From contig NZ_QOIN01000047.1 of assembly GCF_003323715.1 (NCBI RefSeq), forward strand, positions 496,001 through 560,000: a DNA stretch of 64,000 nt. Direction: 5' to 3'. The position numbers and the translations under genes were made by a program. The notes below the pieces were generated by a model. That model was not told the origin of the DNA. It searched no databases and saw nothing but the letters and a program-made list of their open reading frames with translations. Shown here in pieces: positions 19,281 to 27,618 of this stretch. Origin of the DNA: Streptomyces diacarni. Lineage in GTDB: Bacteria; Actinomycetota; Actinomycetes; Streptomycetales; Streptomycetaceae. Positions within the stretch are counted from its first letter, which is position 1. Every line of letters starts with the position of its first letter.

Positions 19281-19976
19281 TCACTCCAGCAACCGCGCCG
19301 CCACCCGCAGGTCGGACAGGAAGCCCGCGTACACCTCGTCCCGGTTCTCGGCGCGCAGGATCGCGGACGGATGGATCGTCGGCACCACCCGCTCCGAGCG
19401 CCCCCGCACCTCACGCTCCGTGCAGGTACCGCGCTCCTTGGTGACGCGGAACGACGAGCCGAACAGCGCCTTGCCCGCCGTGGCGCCCAGCACCACCAGC
19501 ACCTCGGGCTCCGTCAGCGCCAGTTCGGCGGCCAGCCACGGGCCGCACGCCGCCGTCTCCCGCAGCGTCGGCGGCTTGTGGATGCGCCGCTTCCCCCGCC
19601 CCTGCTCATGCGCCCACTTGAAGTGCTTGACCGCGTTGGTCACATACGACTGCGCCGGATCGATCCCCGCCTCATCCAGCGCCCGCTCCAGCATCCGGCC
19701 CGCTGGGCCGACGAAAGGTTCACCCCGGCGGTCCTCCTGATCCCCGGGCTGCTCCCCGACGAGCAGGACACGGGCCCGGGCGTCCCCACTGCCGAAGACC
19801 GTCTGCGTCGCGTCCTCGTGCAGCGGACACCCACGGCAGTCCGCCGCCGCATCCCGCAGCCTGCGCAACCCCGCGTTGCCCCGCCCCGGCCGCTCCGGCA
19901 GGAACGGCGACGCGTCGTACGCCTCCTCGGGCCTGTCCGCCCCGGTCCTGCGTCCCGCACCCTTGTCAGCTGCCAT
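19281..19976 (-). CDS. UdgX-family uracil-DNA glycosylase (uracil-DNA cross-linking type)
   Basis: A 231-residue uracil-DNA glycosylase superfamily protein. Motif A is 'VGEQPGDQEDRRGEPFVGPA', and 'TNAVKHFKWAHEQ' leads into the diagnostic loop 'GRGKRRIHKPPT'. The KRRIH histidine is the residue that forms a covalent bond with uracil-containing DNA in Mycobacterium smegmatis UdgX. The terminal motif is 'IHPSAILRAENRDEV'. Cysteines at 'CRGCPLH' and in 'ETAACGPW' fit the Fe-S cluster of family 4-like enzymes. The ATG at 19976 follows 50 bases after the MqnE-like stop with a small hairpin between. Confidence 0.9.
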   Translation of the reverse strand: MAADKGAGRRTGADRPEEAYDASPFLPERPGRGNAGLRRLRDAAADCRGCPLHEDATQTVFGSGDARARVLLVGEQPGDQEDRRGEPFVGPAGRMLERALDEAGIDPAQSYVTNAVKHFKWAHEQGRGKRRIHKPPTLRETAACGPWLAAELALTEPEVLVVLGATAGKALFGSSFRVTKERGTCTEREVRGRSERVVPTIHPSAILRAENRDEVYAGFLSDLRVAARLLE

Positions 19977-20000
19977 ACGGCTCGCGGTACCCCGCATCCC

Positions 20001-20020
20001 GGCGGCTGTCACAAGCCGCC
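20001..20020 (-). terminator. Small hairpin between the MqnE-like and udgX genes
   Basis: GGCGGCT (20001-20007) pairs with AGCCGCC (20014-20020) around GTCACA. It lies six bases past the MqnE-like stop and may weaken read-through into udgX. Confidence 0.45.
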
Positions 20021-20026
20021 TGCGGC

Positions 20027-21112
20027 TTACACCCGCATGGGCTGGGGCGCCTCGCGGCGGTCCGGGTCCGGCCCGTCGAAGGAGCGCAGGACACCGTGGT
20101 GGGCGTCGCGCTCGACCGGGCGGAAGCCGGTGTCGCGGATGAGCTCGACCAGGTCGTCCCGGGTGAGGACGTCCGCGTCCCGCGAGGCCTCGGCGGCCGG
20201 CGGGCCCGCCATCTCGTCGGCGCCGTGCTGGAGCGCCAGCTGGGACGTCTGCGCGCCGTGCACCGCCCAGCGGGCCGCCACGTGCGCCACGTTGTCCAGC
20301 AGCAGCCGGCACACGGCGAACGTCGCCAGGACCTCGGCGCCGGTCGCGCCCTGCGGCCCCTCGTGGCGCAGCGGAACCACAGCGCGGAAGCCACCGGTCT
20401 CGTCCTGGAGTTCACGCAGCCGCAGCAGGTGGTCGACGCGCTCGGCGAGCTCCTCGCCGTAGCCGAACCGCAGCGTGCAGACGGTGGTGAGGCCCTTGTG
20501 GTGCGCCATCCTGTGCACCCGGGCCCAGTCCTGCCAGCCCGCGCCCTCCGCCTCCCGCGCCACATCCTCGGCGTCCTCGGCGTCCGCGGCCTCCGCGCCG
20601 GGCCCCTCGAAGCCCTCGCCCAGGGAAGCCGGTGCGGCGGCCAGCAGCTCGTCGAGCACCTCGCTCTCGCTCACCTGCGAGGCGGCGGCGAAACGGCTGA
20701 CGTCGGCGGCCGTGAACGCGCGCAGCGCCACCGCCTCGGGCAGGGCGGCGCGCAGCGCCCGCAGCGCCCGCACCCACTGCTCCCAGCTCGTGTCCCCGGC
20801 CGCGCCCAGGTGCAGCTCGGTGGCGCCGTCGGCCGCGAGACGGGTGGCGGCCTCGACCATGTCGTTCATGGCGTCCGTGTCGTTCACGGCGTCCGCTTCG
20901 GCGGGAAGTTCCAGGCGGCGGTGCTCGGCGAAGTACGCCACGTCACCGTTCTTCAGCGCCCGCGCCTCGTGCGCCAGACCGCCGAGCCAGGCCAGGTCGT
21001 CGGACGCGAAGAGCGCGACCCCGTCCTCGTGCCCCAGCCGCTCACCGGAGCGGACCTTCCTCTCGACGTCCGCAAGCCGTCGCCGCAGCTCCGCGTCCAT
21101 TCCTCGCGCCAC
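20027..21112 (-). CDS. MqnE-like protein without the radical-SAM cysteine motif
   Basis: A 361-residue protein that follows aminofutalosine synthase (MqnE) along its length: 'ERLGHEDGVALFASDDLAWL' at the N-terminus, 'VDHLLRLRELQDETGGF' in the middle, 'QTSQLALQHGADEM' and 'LIRDTGFRPVER' at the end. MqnE normally has CxxxCxxC near residue 70 to hold the [4Fe-4S] cluster that cleaves S-adenosylmethionine. Here that segment is replaced by 'LPAEADAVNDTDAMND', with no cysteine. The frame is intact and in normal codon usage. The gene lies between Lrp/AsnC and DUF4229, where mqnE sits in S. coelicolor as I recall. It cannot perform radical SAM chemistry as read; a structural, regulatory or altered catalytic role is open. 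Confidence 0.78.
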   Translation of the reverse strand: MARGMDAELRRRLADVERKVRSGERLGHEDGVALFASDDLAWLGGLAHEARALKNGDVAYFAEHRRLELPAEADAVNDTDAMNDMVEAATRLAADGATELHLGAAGDTSWEQWVRALRALRAALPEAVALRAFTAADVSRFAAASQVSESEVLDELLAAAPASLGEGFEGPGAEAADAEDAEDVAREAEGAGWQDWARVHRMAHHKGLTTVCTLRFGYGEELAERVDHLLRLRELQDETGGFRAVVPLRHEGPQGATGAEVLATFAVCRLLLDNVAHVAARWAVHGAQTSQLALQHGADEMAGPPAAEASRDADVLTRDDLVELIRDTGFRPVERDAHHGVLRSFDGPDPDRREAPQPMRV

Positions 21113-21229
21113 CTGCCTGCCTCGTTGGTGCTTGTCGCGGTGTGCTGACCTTTCGCGTCCCTCACGTTCCGGAGGGCCTTCCGGGCGCCTCCGCGCGTCC
21201 CGACGACACTACGCCAGGCCGCCGGGGCC

Positions 21230-21682
21230 TCACTCCTCGGGCAGCTCGCCCACCCGGTTCTCCCACTTGGTGGACAGCACGATCGTGGTACGCGTGCGGG
21301 AGACGCCCTCGGTGCCAGAGAGCCGGCGGATGGTGCGCTCCAACCCGTCCACATCCCCCGCCCGCACCTTGAGCATGTACGAGTCGTCACCGGCGATGAA
21401 CCAGCAGTCCTCGATCTCGTGCAGGGAGCGCAGCCGCCCCGCCACGTCCTCGTGGTCCGTCGCGTCGGTCAGCTGGATGCCGATGAGGGCCGTCACCCCG
21501 AGCCCCAGCGAGGGGGCGTCGACAGTGGCGCGGTAGCCGGTGATCACCCCGGCCGCCTCCAGCCGGTTGATCCGGTCGGTGACACTCGGCCCCGACAGCC
21601 CCACCAGCCGCCCCAGTTCCGCGTAGGAGGCCCTCCCGTTCTCCCGCAGCGCCTGGATGAGCTGCCTGTCCACCGCGTCCAT
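21230..21682 (-). CDS. Lrp/AsnC-family transcriptional regulator
   Basis: A 150-residue Lrp/AsnC protein. The N-terminal HTH is 'MDAVDRQLIQALRENGRASY' with 'LVGLSGPSVTDRINRLEAAG', and the C-terminal RAM ligand-binding domain includes 'DCWFIAGDDSYMLKVRAGDV'. Such proteins form octamers that respond to amino acids or other small molecules. It sits in the middle of the menaquinone cluster between the UbiX-like gene and the MqnE-like gene and may regulate them. ATG 21682 is chosen because homologues begin at MDAVD; upstream codons are not conserved in type. Confidence 0.9.
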   Translation of the reverse strand: MDAVDRQLIQALRENGRASYAELGRLVGLSGPSVTDRINRLEAAGVITGYRATVDAPSLGLGVTALIGIQLTDATDHEDVAGRLRSLHEIEDCWFIAGDDSYMLKVRAGDVDGLERTIRRLSGTEGVSRTRTTIVLSTKWENRVGELPEE

Positions 21683-21722
21683 GGTGCCGCTGCCTCCCGT
21701 TGTAGAAGTCCGAACCACGAAT

Positions 21723-22409
21723 CTAAGGCATGGGCCCGACACCGCCCCGCCCTAGCTCCCCCTCCCAGCGCCGGTACAACTGGTGCGGCACACCCGCCGC
21801 GTCCAGCACCCGCCCCGCCACGAAGTCCACCAGATCCTGGATGTGCCGGGCGCCCGCGTAGAAGGCGGGCGAGGCGGGCAGCACGACGGCGCCCGCCTCG
21901 TCCAGCGTCACCAGATGCCGCAGCGTCTGACCGCTCAGCGGGGTCTCCCGGACGGCTACGACGAGCGGACGGCGCTCCTTGAGCGTCACACTCGCCGCGC
22001 GCTGCAACAGGTCCTTCGAAAGCCCGAGCGCCACACCGGCCACACACGCCGTGCTCGCCGGAACGATCACCATGCCCTTGACCGGATACGACCCGGAGGA
22101 CGGCCCCGCCGCCAGATCCCCCGGCGGCCAGTGGCGCACCCGGGCCGGGTCGGCGCCCGGCTCCGCCTTGAACGCGTCCGGGCTGCCGTCCGCGCCCCGG
22201 GCCAGCCAGCGGCGCAGGTCCGCCTCCGCGTGCGCGTCGCGGAACGGATGGCCCGTCTCGTCGAGGATCGTGAGGCGGGAGGCGCGGCTCACGACCAGAT
22301 CGACGTCCTCACCGGCGCTCAGCAGACCGCGGACGACCGCGGCCGCGTACGGCGTTCCCGAGGCCCCTGAGACGCCCACGATCCATGGCACCCGTCCTGT
22401 GTCACTCAC
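21723..22409 (-). CDS. UbiX-type flavin prenyltransferase of menaquinone synthesis
   Basis: A 228-residue flavoprotein. 'WIVGVSGASGTPYAAAVVRG' is the FMN/dimethylallyl-phosphate site, and 'PASTACVAGVALGLSKDLLQ' and 'PLSGQTLRHLVTLDEAGAVV' are the standard UbiX motifs. It makes prenylated FMN for the UbiD-like decarboxylase encoded at 26026. In the futalosine menaquinone route this pair is linked to decarboxylation of the prenylated naphthoate. GTG 22409 is the likely start, with a second GTG at 22391. It is divergent from a lipoprotein gene. Confidence 0.88.
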   Translation of the reverse strand: MSDTGRVPWIVGVSGASGTPYAAAVVRGLLSAGEDVDLVVSRASRLTILDETGHPFRDAHAEADLRRWLARGADGSPDAFKAEPGADPARVRHWPPGDLAAGPSSGSYPVKGMVIVPASTACVAGVALGLSKDLLQRAASVTLKERRPLVVAVRETPLSGQTLRHLVTLDEAGAVVLPASPAFYAGARHIQDLVDFVAGRVLDAAGVPHQLYRRWEGELGRGGVGPMP

Positions 22410-22520
22410 GGACCCGACCCTACTTGTGCCCTCCCGCCCCGCCGGGCGGGTCCGCCCCGGGGCCGGGAAACCCCGACAGGCTCGGGGCGGGCACGGGGGC
22501 GCCCGCGTACCCTCGACGCC

Positions 22521-25108: not shown

Positions 25109-26029
25109 TCACACACTCAGCCCGCGCACCGCGAGATCCAGCAGGGCGCACACGAACAGGGCGATGCCGATAAAGCTGTTGACCTGGAAGAAGGCGCGGT
25201 TGAGGCGGGTCAGGTCGTGGGGGCGGACGAGGGTGTGCTCGTAGCCGAAGGCGGCGGTGACGATGACGAGGCCCAGCCAGTAGAAGACGCCCGCGTCCGT
25301 CAGCAGGCCGAAGGTGACCAGCAGGGCCACGGTGACCAGGTGGGCGGCGCGCGTGGTGTGGATGGCGGCGGCGGTGCCGAAGCGGGCCGGGAGGGACTTC
25401 ACCCCGTTGTCGCGGTCGGCCTCGACGTCCTGGCACGCGTAGATCAGGTCGAAGCCGCCGATCCAGATGCCGACGGCCAGGCCGAGGACGGCGCCGTGCC
25501 AGGACCAGGAGCCGGTGACGGCGAGCCACGCGCCGAGGGGGCCGATGGCCTGGGCGAGTCCGAGGATGGCGTGCGGGAAGTGGGTGAAGCGCTTCCCGTA
25601 CGGATAGACGACCATCGGGAGCGCCGCGACGGGTGCCAGGGCCAGGCAGAGCGGGTTGAGCAGGGCGCAGGTGCCGAGGAAGACGACGAGGGCGACGGCG
25701 GCGCCCGTCCACGCCGTGCGCACGGAGACCGCGCCGGTGACCAGTTCGCGGCCCGCGGTGCGCGGGTTGCGGGCGTCGATCTCGCGGTCGATGATCCGGT
25801 TCGCGGCCATCGCGAAGGTCCGCATCCCCACCATGGCGACCGTCACCAGCAGCAGCTGCCACCAGTGGACGCTGCGGCTGTCGCGGTACATGGCGGTGAG
25901 CGCGGCGATGTAGGCGAAGGGCAGCGCGAAGACGGAGTGCTCGATGACCACCAGGCGCAGGAAGGCGCGGACGCGTCCGACGTCGGCGCCAGGGCCTGGG
26001 CCGACGATGCCCTCGGCGGTGCTGCTCAC
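25109..26029 (-). CDS. mqnP: UbiA-family prenyltransferase of menaquinone synthesis (MqnP)
   Basis: A 306-residue membrane prenyltransferase with about eight helices. The first Asp-rich motif is 'NRIIDREIDARNPRTAGREL' and the second is 'DLIYACQDVEADRDNGVKSL'; both bind Mg-prenyl diphosphate. In organisms with the futalosine route this enzyme attaches the polyprenyl tail to 1,4-dihydroxy-6-naphthoate. GTG 26029 overlaps the UbiD stop by four bases (GTGA), so the two are translationally coupled. The gene symbol follows the futalosine-pathway naming and is inferred from the cluster. Confidence 0.87.
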   Translation of the reverse strand: MSSTAEGIVGPGPGADVGRVRAFLRLVVIEHSVFALPFAYIAALTAMYRDSRSVHWWQLLLVTVAMVGMRTFAMAANRIIDREIDARNPRTAGRELVTGAVSVRTAWTGAAVALVVFLGTCALLNPLCLALAPVAALPMVVYPYGKRFTHFPHAILGLAQAIGPLGAWLAVTGSWSWHGAVLGLAVGIWIGGFDLIYACQDVEADRDNGVKSLPARFGTAAAIHTTRAAHLVTVALLVTFGLLTDAGVFYWLGLVIVTAAFGYEHTLVRPHDLTRLNRAFFQVNSFIGIALFVCALLDLAVRGLSV

Positions 26030-27477
26030 AGCCCGTACTCCTTCCACCGGCGCGTCACCAGGTCGGCCGTCTTCGCGTCGGACTCGATCATCTCCGGCCA
26101 GCCGCCGTCCCGCGTGTAGCCCTCCTCGGGGGTTTTGCGGGTGGCGTCGATGCCGGCCTTGCCGCCCCAGAACTGCTGGTAGGAGGCGTGGTCCAGGTGG
26201 TCGACGGGTCCCTCGGCCACGGTGAGGTCGCGCGCGTAGTCCACGTTGCCCAGGGCCCGCCAGGCGACCTCGTGCAGGTTCCGCACGTCGCAGTCGGCGT
26301 CGACGATGACGATGAGCTTGGTCAGCGACATCATGTGGGCGCCCCAGATGGCGTGCATCACCTTCTGGGCGTGCTTGGGGTATTTCTTGTCGATGGCGAC
26401 GACCGCGCAGTTGTGGAAGCCGCCCGCCTCGGGCAGGTGGTAGTCGACGATGTCGGGTACGACGATCTTCAGCAGCGGCAGGAAGAACCGCTCGGTGGCC
26501 CGGCCCAGCGGCCCGTCCTCGGTCGGGGGCCGGCCGACGACGATCGACTGGAGCAGCGGTCGCTTCCGCGTCGTCACGCAGTCGATCCGCAGCGCGGGGA
26601 AGGGCTCCTGGGGGGTGTAGAAGCCGGTGTGGTCGCCGAAGGGGCCCTCTGGCAGCATCTCGCCCGGCTCCAGCCAGCCCTCCAGCACGACCTCGGCGTC
26701 CGCGGGAACCTGGAGCGGGACGGTCTTGCAGTCGACCATCTCGACGCGCTTGCCCTGCAGGAAGCCGGCCAGCAGGTACTCGTCGATGTCGGCGGGCAGC
26801 GGCGCGGTGGAGGCGTAGGTGACGGCGGGCGGGCAGCCGAAGGCGATGGCGACGGGGAGTTTCTCGCCGCGCCGCGCCGCGACCTGGTAGTGGTTGCGGC
26901 TGTCCTTGTGGATCTGCCAGTGCATCCCGATGGTGCGCCGGTCGTGCCGCTGGAGCCGGTAGAGGCCCAGGTTGCGCACCCCGCTGGCGGGGTCCTTGGT
27001 GTGGGTGAGGCCGAGGTTGAAGAAGGAGCCGCCGTCGCCGGGCCAGGTGAACAGCGCGGGCAGCCGGTCCAGGTCGACCTCGTCGCCCTGCCGAACGACC
27101 TCCTGGACGGGCGCCTCCTTCACCTTCTTCGGCGGCACGTGCGTCATGGCGCCGAGCTTCCCGAAGGCCTCGCGGAAGCCGACGAAGCCCTGCGGCAGCT
27201 CGGGCTTGAGCAGGCCGCCGATCTTGTCGCTGATCTCGTCGTAGGAGGACAGACCGAGCGCCTTGAGCAGCCGCCGGTCCGTGCCGTAGACGTTCATGGC
27301 CAGCGGCATGTCCGAGCCCTTGACGTTCTCGAACAGCAGCGCAGGGCCGCCCGCCTTGTTCACCCGGTCGACGAGCTCCCCGACCTCCAGGTGCGGGTCG
27401 ACCTCGGCCTTGACCCGGACGAGGTCACGGTCACGCTCCAGCGCCCGCAGGAGCGAGCGGAGATCGTCGTATGCCAT
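26026..27477 (-). CDS. mqnL: UbiD-type prenylated-FMN decarboxylase of menaquinone synthesis (MqnL)
   Basis: A 483-residue UbiD family protein. 'WPGDGGSFFNLGLTHTKDPA' and 'NLGLYRLQRHDRRTIGMHWQ' form the prenyl-FMN/Mn region, and 'PEGPFGDHTGFYTP' carries the catalytic Glu-Arg-Glu type acidic residue. 'IVVPDIVDYHLPEAGGFHN' and 'HAIWGAHMMSLTKLIVIVDA' are diagnostic. Its expected role is decarboxylation of the prenylated naphthoate, using cofactor made by the UbiX homologue. It is first in the pair with mqnP. The start ATG 27477 follows a GGGAG site. Confidence 0.9.
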   Translation of the reverse strand: MAYDDLRSLLRALERDRDLVRVKAEVDPHLEVGELVDRVNKAGGPALLFENVKGSDMPLAMNVYGTDRRLLKALGLSSYDEISDKIGGLLKPELPQGFVGFREAFGKLGAMTHVPPKKVKEAPVQEVVRQGDEVDLDRLPALFTWPGDGGSFFNLGLTHTKDPASGVRNLGLYRLQRHDRRTIGMHWQIHKDSRNHYQVAARRGEKLPVAIAFGCPPAVTYASTAPLPADIDEYLLAGFLQGKRVEMVDCKTVPLQVPADAEVVLEGWLEPGEMLPEGPFGDHTGFYTPQEPFPALRIDCVTTRKRPLLQSIVVGRPPTEDGPLGRATERFFLPLLKIVVPDIVDYHLPEAGGFHNCAVVAIDKKYPKHAQKVMHAIWGAHMMSLTKLIVIVDADCDVRNLHEVAWRALGNVDYARDLTVAEGPVDHLDHASYQQFWGGKAGIDATRKTPEEGYTRDGGWPEMIESDAKTADLVTRRWKEYGL

Positions 27478-27618
27478 ACCCCTCAGTATCTCCCTCGCGG
27501 CCCGCGCCCTGAGCGCCGGGGCCTCCGCGCGGCCCATTACGCTGGCACCGTGGGACCCGGACGCCGGGCCCCGCACCGCATCCGTCCGGCGGCATCTCGC
27601 ACCCAGGGGGCGTTCCGC

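Follow-up and report, generated by a model that had tools for sequence, protein, structure and literature searches.

A cysteine-less MqnE orthologue in Streptomyces: a possible displaced pseudoenzyme still under selection

MqnE is regarded as the entry into the futalosine pathway after MqnA, and it figures in reviews of Helicobacter targets. The DNA analysed here (the window, 64,000 nt from Streptomyces diacarni) carries, in the position of mqnE, a gene whose product resembles MqnE from end to end and is devoid of the CxxxCxxC segment that binds the radical-SAM iron-sulfur cluster. How, then, is aminofutalosine made in such an organism, and why is this gene, here called mqnE′, still there? We see about an even chance that mqnE′ is a displaced, still-selected pseudoenzyme with a putative non-catalytic role, the aminofutalosine step being carried out by a non-orthologous activity.

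An MqnE orthologue without the iron-sulfur cluster site

The features of the locus are, in order of position:

19281–19976, minus strand: uracil-DNA-glycosylase-like gene, downstream of mqnE′
20027–21112, minus strand: mqnE′, cysteine-less MqnE orthologue of 361 aa, predicted fold matching MqnE 6XI9 (E 4.4e-23)
20030–20350, minus strand: retained C-terminal block of MqnE′ (residues 255–361), from residue retention and dN/dS
20861–20908, minus strand: LPAEADAVNDTDAMND (residues 69–84), where the canonical CxxxCxxC loop would sit, from alignments; position counted by hand
20930–21061, minus strand: retained N-terminal block of MqnE′ (residues 18–61), from residue retention; position counted by hand
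21230–21742, minus strand: Lrp/AsnC regulator, upstream of mqnE′
21723–22445, minus strand: UbiX-family flavin prenyltransferase (TIGR00421, 140.2 bits, cut-off 108.9)
25109–26047, minus strand: MqnP prenyltransferase of the UbiA family (MqnP family, 529.5 bits, cut-off 420)
26026–27480, minus strand: menaquinone UbiD decarboxylase (TIGR03701, 646 bits, cut-off 495.9), the start near 27480 being an estimate from the range of the profile match

The reading frame of mqnE′ begins with GTG and ends with a stop codon at 20027–20029 (minus strand). Its neighbours, lrp beside it and mqnP, ubiD and ubiX nearby, are those of canonical mqnE loci, which bears out the placement in the menaquinone cluster given by the original prediction. 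The uracil-DNA-glycosylase (UDG) name of the downstream frame was given from its sequence and is presumptive; homologues lie at the same place in G007, G298 and G368 (genomes are given by G numbers and loci by L numbers).

The peptides on which the predicted end-to-end similarity rested are all present, and the two cysteines said to be the only ones were both found in the translation. The best curated family of the protein was TIGR03700 (MqnE), matched over residues 17–339; a better match to a naturally cysteine-free family was looked for and not found. Compared with MqnE (TIGR03700; SCO4494; 6XI9/6XIG), the window gene is alike in position, end-to-end similarity and predicted fold, but it lacks CxxxCxxC and scores 232.8 bits, short of the family cut-off of 434.55. 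The Pfam Radical_SAM score (PF04055) was 19.4, against a gathering threshold of 29.5. MqnC (TIGR03699), of the same superfamily, is 35% identical to the window protein over residues 103–349, but is encoded by a separate, intact gene in the window's genome that exceeds its own cut-off (456.7 bits against 428.1).

CxxxCxxC is absent from all six frames of 19901–21300, so no frameshift hides the motif. The S. reniochalinae copy is 93% identical and likewise motif-less, and the loss is therefore not an assembly error. By alignment, two further canonical stretches (HDFVDMKDGK..., VVEYKITHD...) are mostly missing from the window protein. Relative to the S. reniochalinae copy, the window protein also has short additions rich in Asp, Glu, Ala and Asn at 20550–20600 and 20861–20908, which look like repeat expansion.

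MqnE′ thus combines a homologous predicted fold with lost catalytic cysteines, as pseudoenzymes do. Without the [4Fe-4S] site it would not be expected to initiate radical-SAM chemistry; judged from the sequence, it is nearly certain that radical-SAM catalysis has been lost, and MqnE is the wrong name for this gene in such species. We found no published account of a cysteine-less MqnE in the open-access literature searched.

Carriers, the remaining pathway and the search for a replacement

The original prediction had offered two explanations, a true mqnE elsewhere or a step done differently. When the window's genome (7.66 Mb in 80 contigs, completeness 99.99%) was searched with TIGR03700, no second mqnE exceeded the cut-off: the matches were MqnC, a two-domain radical-SAM gene that we take to be CofGH, mqnE′ itself, two weak fragments in the frame of that two-domain gene, and one chance match (E 0.75). 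When 392 Streptomyces genomes were searched with a 103-aa canonical MqnE fragment spanning the cysteines, the canonical region was found in 379 and was absent in 13. In two of the latter (G050 and G338) mqnE is cut by a contig end; the other 11 (G000, G045, G047, G073, G088, G105, G138, G184, G272, G297 and G298) have a cysteine-less MqnE′ beside lrp, and none of them, the window's genome included, holds an MqnE over the TIGR03700 cut-off. In a further genome, G368, MqnE′ at the native place is accompanied by a canonical copy in a secondary-metabolite-like cluster. At least 12 of the 392 genomes are carriers, those with extra copies having been examined only in part.

The idea of a true mqnE elsewhere did not hold up in these 11 genomes. 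A canonical gene missed on a plasmid or in an assembly gap is a very unlikely explanation: canonical mqnE does occur on seven Streptomyces plasmid records (in the one opened, inside a secondary-metabolite-like cluster) and in G368, but the 11 genomes agree, and four of them are single contigs (G047, G105, G184 and G272) and two have 3 (G297) and 5 (G088) contigs; G073 has 1140.

A DNA pattern excluding the canonical form matched 13 of 220 loci, all MqnE′, and hit 11 named records: S. qinglanensis, S. sp. AA1529, S. albus subsp. chlorinus and albus, S. boncukensis, S. reniochalinae, S. aculeolatus, S. iconiensis, S. spirodelae, S. smyrnaeus and S. cacaoi, the last with an MqnE′ truncated by the locus edge and kept out of the counts. 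Across the 12 carriers the longest protein is that of the window, with 361 aa, and the shortest are those of G047, G105 and G184, with 205 aa; in S. aculeolatus it has 204 aa. Elsewhere, the mqnE copies of L137 (G002), L130 (G119) and L131/L132 (G164) look split, partly doubled around an X, or cut by contig ends, and are probably assembly faults.

The gonM genes of the PM100117/118 cluster are the second mqnE of some Streptomyces; as described in PMC4763440, these differ from MqnE′ in being canonical and in lying with a ferredoxin, mqnA, mqnC and mqnD in an antibiotic cluster. No gonM-like copy was found in the window's genome with TIGR03700. Second mqnE–ferredoxin–mqnA–mqnC sets beside sugar genes occur at L126 (contig C35 of G368), at L128 (G013) and on plasmid NZ_CP108034.1 (L335), the last also with a P450, futalosine hydrolase, metK and ahcY; all three resemble the PM100117 cluster.

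The rest of the pathway persists where MqnE is missing. The searches for mqnA, mqnC and mqnD proposed at the outset gave, in the window's genome, two genes of PF02621 (MqnA, MqnD), as expected for mqnA plus mqnD, besides the intact MqnC; PF02621 genes number two in 8 of 10 carriers, one in the fragmented G073 and four in G368, and MqnB lies beside mqnD in all eight carriers examined. Between eight carriers and 20 canonical genomes the identity of MqnC is 88% (92% among the canonical ones), and its dN/dS was 0.03–0.07 in three pairs; the MqnC values for G000/reniochalinae, the two qinglanensis pairs and albus/chlorinus were disregarded as mis-hits, since one locus has no mqnC. MenD over its cut-off was found in none of 15 genomes (10 of them carriers, the window's genome included), weak matches of 28–73 bits occurring in all 15, and on this MenD search the classical Men pathway was rejected as a source. 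Table 3 of PMC10100901 gives MK-9(H4) 11.6%, MK-9(H6) 76.0% and MK-9(H8) 6.4% for S. reniochalinae LHW50302. This is the strain of locus L225, with the 93% identical MqnE′; it is the one carrier strain for which a menaquinone content was available, and was searched at this locus only. We infer that the futalosine pathway is still used in carriers. Since MqnA to MqnD are present and constrained, MqnE and MenD are lacking and a close carrier makes menaquinone, the aminofutalosine step is likely to be performed by another activity, so that of the two initial explanations the second is the one that remains.

Candidates for this activity were then sought. At the mqnE, mqnA/mqnC and mqnB/mqnD loci no gene peculiar to all carriers examined was found (mqnD and mqnC loci compared in eight carriers and three canonical genomes), and a replacement inserted there was set aside. 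Among the proteins of G000, G088, G047 and G272 detected with PF04055, no new radical-SAM family common to the four was found, only common families: LipA, BioB, HpnH, TIGR03960, MqnC and the presumed CofGH are in all four, as are further families that, from their motifs, presumably are MoaA, MiaB, RimO, HemW and RlmN; a Rv2578c-type gene is in three and HpnR in two. On this comparison of four genomes a new radical-SAM gene was rejected as the replacement. With no locus-specific gene and no new radical-SAM family, the possible replacements are a common enzyme doubling in this step, an enzyme that uses no radical chemistry, lineage-specific solutions, or MqnC helped by MqnE′.

The last option, in which both radical steps would use the iron-sulfur/SAM site of MqnC, with MqnE′ as a non-catalytic subunit redirecting MqnC to the MqnA product, strikes us as improbable. 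In its favour, MqnC and MqnE are homologous (329 bits for MqnC with the MqnE model), no other remaining protein of the window's genome is as MqnE-like, and such an arrangement needs no new gene, which would fit repeated loss. One C-terminal MqnC position, K in 19 of 20 canonical genomes, is A or T in 8/8 carriers, but it lies close to the terminus, the core has no position that differs in all carriers, and the shortest MqnE′ lacks about half the barrel. In the other pathway proteins, each set against three canonical genomes, MqnD has no change common to all carriers; five columns of MqnA are changed in seven carriers, at least three of these columns being still canonical in G272, and five columns of MqnB are changed in eight. 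Because only three canonical genomes were compared, nothing is drawn from MqnA, MqnB and MqnD. At one of the five MqnB columns (L133, L241–L250) the proline before VGPRD (3/3 canonical) is Ala or Thr in 8/8 carriers; the plasmid-borne futalosine hydrolase also has Ala there.

Retained parts, selection and a contracted gene beside mqnC

Residue retention, scored for 14 MqnE′ against 6 canonical sequences and binned by canonical position, is uneven along the protein. Only 1% of invariant residues are kept in the cysteine bin (canonical 71–80), against 89–99% at canonical positions 21–50; five C-terminal bins keep 78–97% and the other C-terminal bins 16–68%. AlphaFold models built from 11-sequence alignments had a mean pLDDT of 78 for the window form and 76 for the 204-aa form, the latter matching 6XI9 over 184 residues at 2.3 Å (Z 17.5). 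In these models the window form is predicted to have a largely whole barrel without the iron-sulfur loop, and the 204-aa form a barrel cut to about half. That MqnE′ itself makes aminofutalosine by non-radical chemistry would agree with its locus position and with some selection, but in the 205-aa forms the cysteine face is gone together with about half the barrel, and we give this idea almost no credence.

MqnE′ is under relaxed purifying selection. Its pairwise dN/dS was 0.26–0.51 in ten pairs, and in neutral simulations (mutation matrix estimated at these genes' own fourfold sites, 500 copies for each of eight pairs) no copy reached a value as low as observed in any pair; for G047/G184 the neutral mean is meaningless, as dS is near zero, and the 0/500 count stands. 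Lrp dN/dS did not exceed 0.05 in six of eight pairs, and was 0.24 and 0.55 in the other two. In single pairs other neighbours were about as relaxed: UDG had 0.25 against 0.26 for MqnE′ in the window/reniochalinae pair, and UbiX 0.39 against 0.32 in G047/G184. By region, the C-terminal part had 0.18–0.38 in eight pairs, below the middle part in six of them (once barely), and the short N-terminal part, with few changes and little weight by itself, had 0.13–1.06, including 0.64–1.06 in four of the eight. The claim that the gene is maintained rather than decayed is right in that selection is present, but that selection is relaxed relative to Lrp. The other signs advanced for maintenance carry less: codon usage is normal, with G+C of 0.83/0.50/0.94 by codon position, but alone this is a weak sign in GC-rich DNA, and an open frame alone is weak evidence too, because 266–404 of 500 neutral copies (53–81%) were stop-free at the observed divergence (stops in 96–234). 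Gap runs were taken from protein alignments, in which whole-codon gaps prove nothing.

The selection on MqnE′ could be residual, which counts against our main reading. A less probable but serious alternative is that MqnE was displaced and MqnE′ is a roleless, slowly eroding relic that stays open since stops are rare in GC-rich DNA. The excess of its dN/dS over that of lrp and MqnC in most pairs, the 0.64–0.80 of its middle part in four of eight pairs, the stop-free neutral majority and the loss of an mqnC-adjacent relic in 11 of 12 carriers (below) are consistent with erosion. The neutral simulations argue against it, as do the 18 distinct copies (21 minus four duplicates, plus G297), each a single open frame, and the retention in several terminal bins (0.78–0.99, others 0.16–0.68) as opposed to the cysteine bin (0.01).

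A second contracted gene lies just 3′ of mqnC. In outgroups G392, G399 and G400 (three of ten outgroups) this gene is a full-length amidohydrolase, and the matches of the G392 protein include the NCBIfam 'aminofutalosine deaminase family hydrolase' at 139 bits (cut-off 320). The 3′ gene is placed as follows:

L240, 3058–3660: amidohydrolase gene 3′ of mqnC
L239, 4645–5298: amidohydrolase gene 3′ of mqnC
L315, 1771–3261: amidohydrolase gene 3′ of mqnC
window's genome, L134: absent

In canonical-MqnE Streptomyces a barrel-less protein of roughly 130–230 aa stands beside mqnC in 28 of 29 genomes, with dN/dS of 0.17–0.81 (14 pairs) and a PF22039 match in one of two tested; it is absent there in 11 of 12 carriers, G272 keeping it. 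This association counts genomes and not independent events, with at most three lineages and one exception each way. SCO4662 is listed among the S. coelicolor pathway enzymes and the species uses a deaminase according to PMC3937554; on our reading deamination is then probably provided from another place, and the mqnC-adjacent gene was apparently displaced and then contracted in place. By analogy, the same sequence of events would fit mqnE. The two cases are alike in that a barrel enzyme neighbouring the pathway contracted in place with its ends kept; they differ in that the relic is an amidohydrolase, occurs in canonical-MqnE genomes and is mostly absent where MqnE contracted.

As for a second role, PMC6767563 lists sco4494 of S. 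coelicolor as a sigma-E target and reports that its protein rises under vancomycin, a response that may hint at one. A sigma-E promoter upstream of mqnE′ was considered and rejected: the consensus occurred at 1 of 14 MqnE′ genes (that of the window) and 0 of 45 canonical ones, with a chance expectation of 3%.

Loss of MqnE across lineages and a proposed course of displacement

A tree of rpoB (30 genomes, 1161 codons) suggests that the carriers form three or four separate groups: G047/G105/G184; G000/G073/G088/G138/G298/G368; G045/G297; and G272. G272 falls inside a canonical clade (support 89). The groups of G047 and G000 both lie outside the clade of canonical genomes (94); the node that separates them has a support of only 75, and the two may be a single group. 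A single clade of all carriers was rejected by rpoB (AU p 0.0024), and the tree of the neighbouring lrp leans the same way (p 0.057). Against separate losses, all 12 carriers come together with support 100 in a tree built on the retained MqnE parts (191 columns). Long branches can produce such a joining, and no more than two derived residues at columns invariant in canonical MqnE are shared by nine or more carriers; spread of the mqnE′ gene alone, instead of separate losses, is possible.

We propose that mqnE′ is the original mqnE of this lineage turned pseudoenzyme, its sequence showing the loss of the [4Fe-4S] cluster site, while another, non-orthologous activity would make aminofutalosine, so that the other futalosine pathway genes were kept. 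Freed of catalysis, MqnE′ would have contracted in place by losing segments of the barrel, to as little as about 205 aa. Its N- and C-terminal parts keep their residues and are under relaxed purifying selection, and the models predict that they form a partial barrel like that of MqnE. A putative non-catalytic role, for example in binding a pathway partner, is plausible for what is left. Our fuller account, held tentatively and at somewhat less than even confidence, is that aminofutalosine (or futalosine) is made by a non-orthologous synthase, unlikely to be a newly gained radical-SAM protein, which let several lineages drop MqnE chemistry, and that the shrunken MqnE has a second, non-catalytic job.

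The presence of MqnA, B, C and D without MqnE, in genomes some of which are complete, together with MK-9 in a close carrier, marks a precise hole in the pathway, and the carriers of MqnE′ name the strains in which to seek the missing aminofutalosine enzyme. MqnE′ is also a case of a barrel enzyme that has been reduced to about half and remains under selection.
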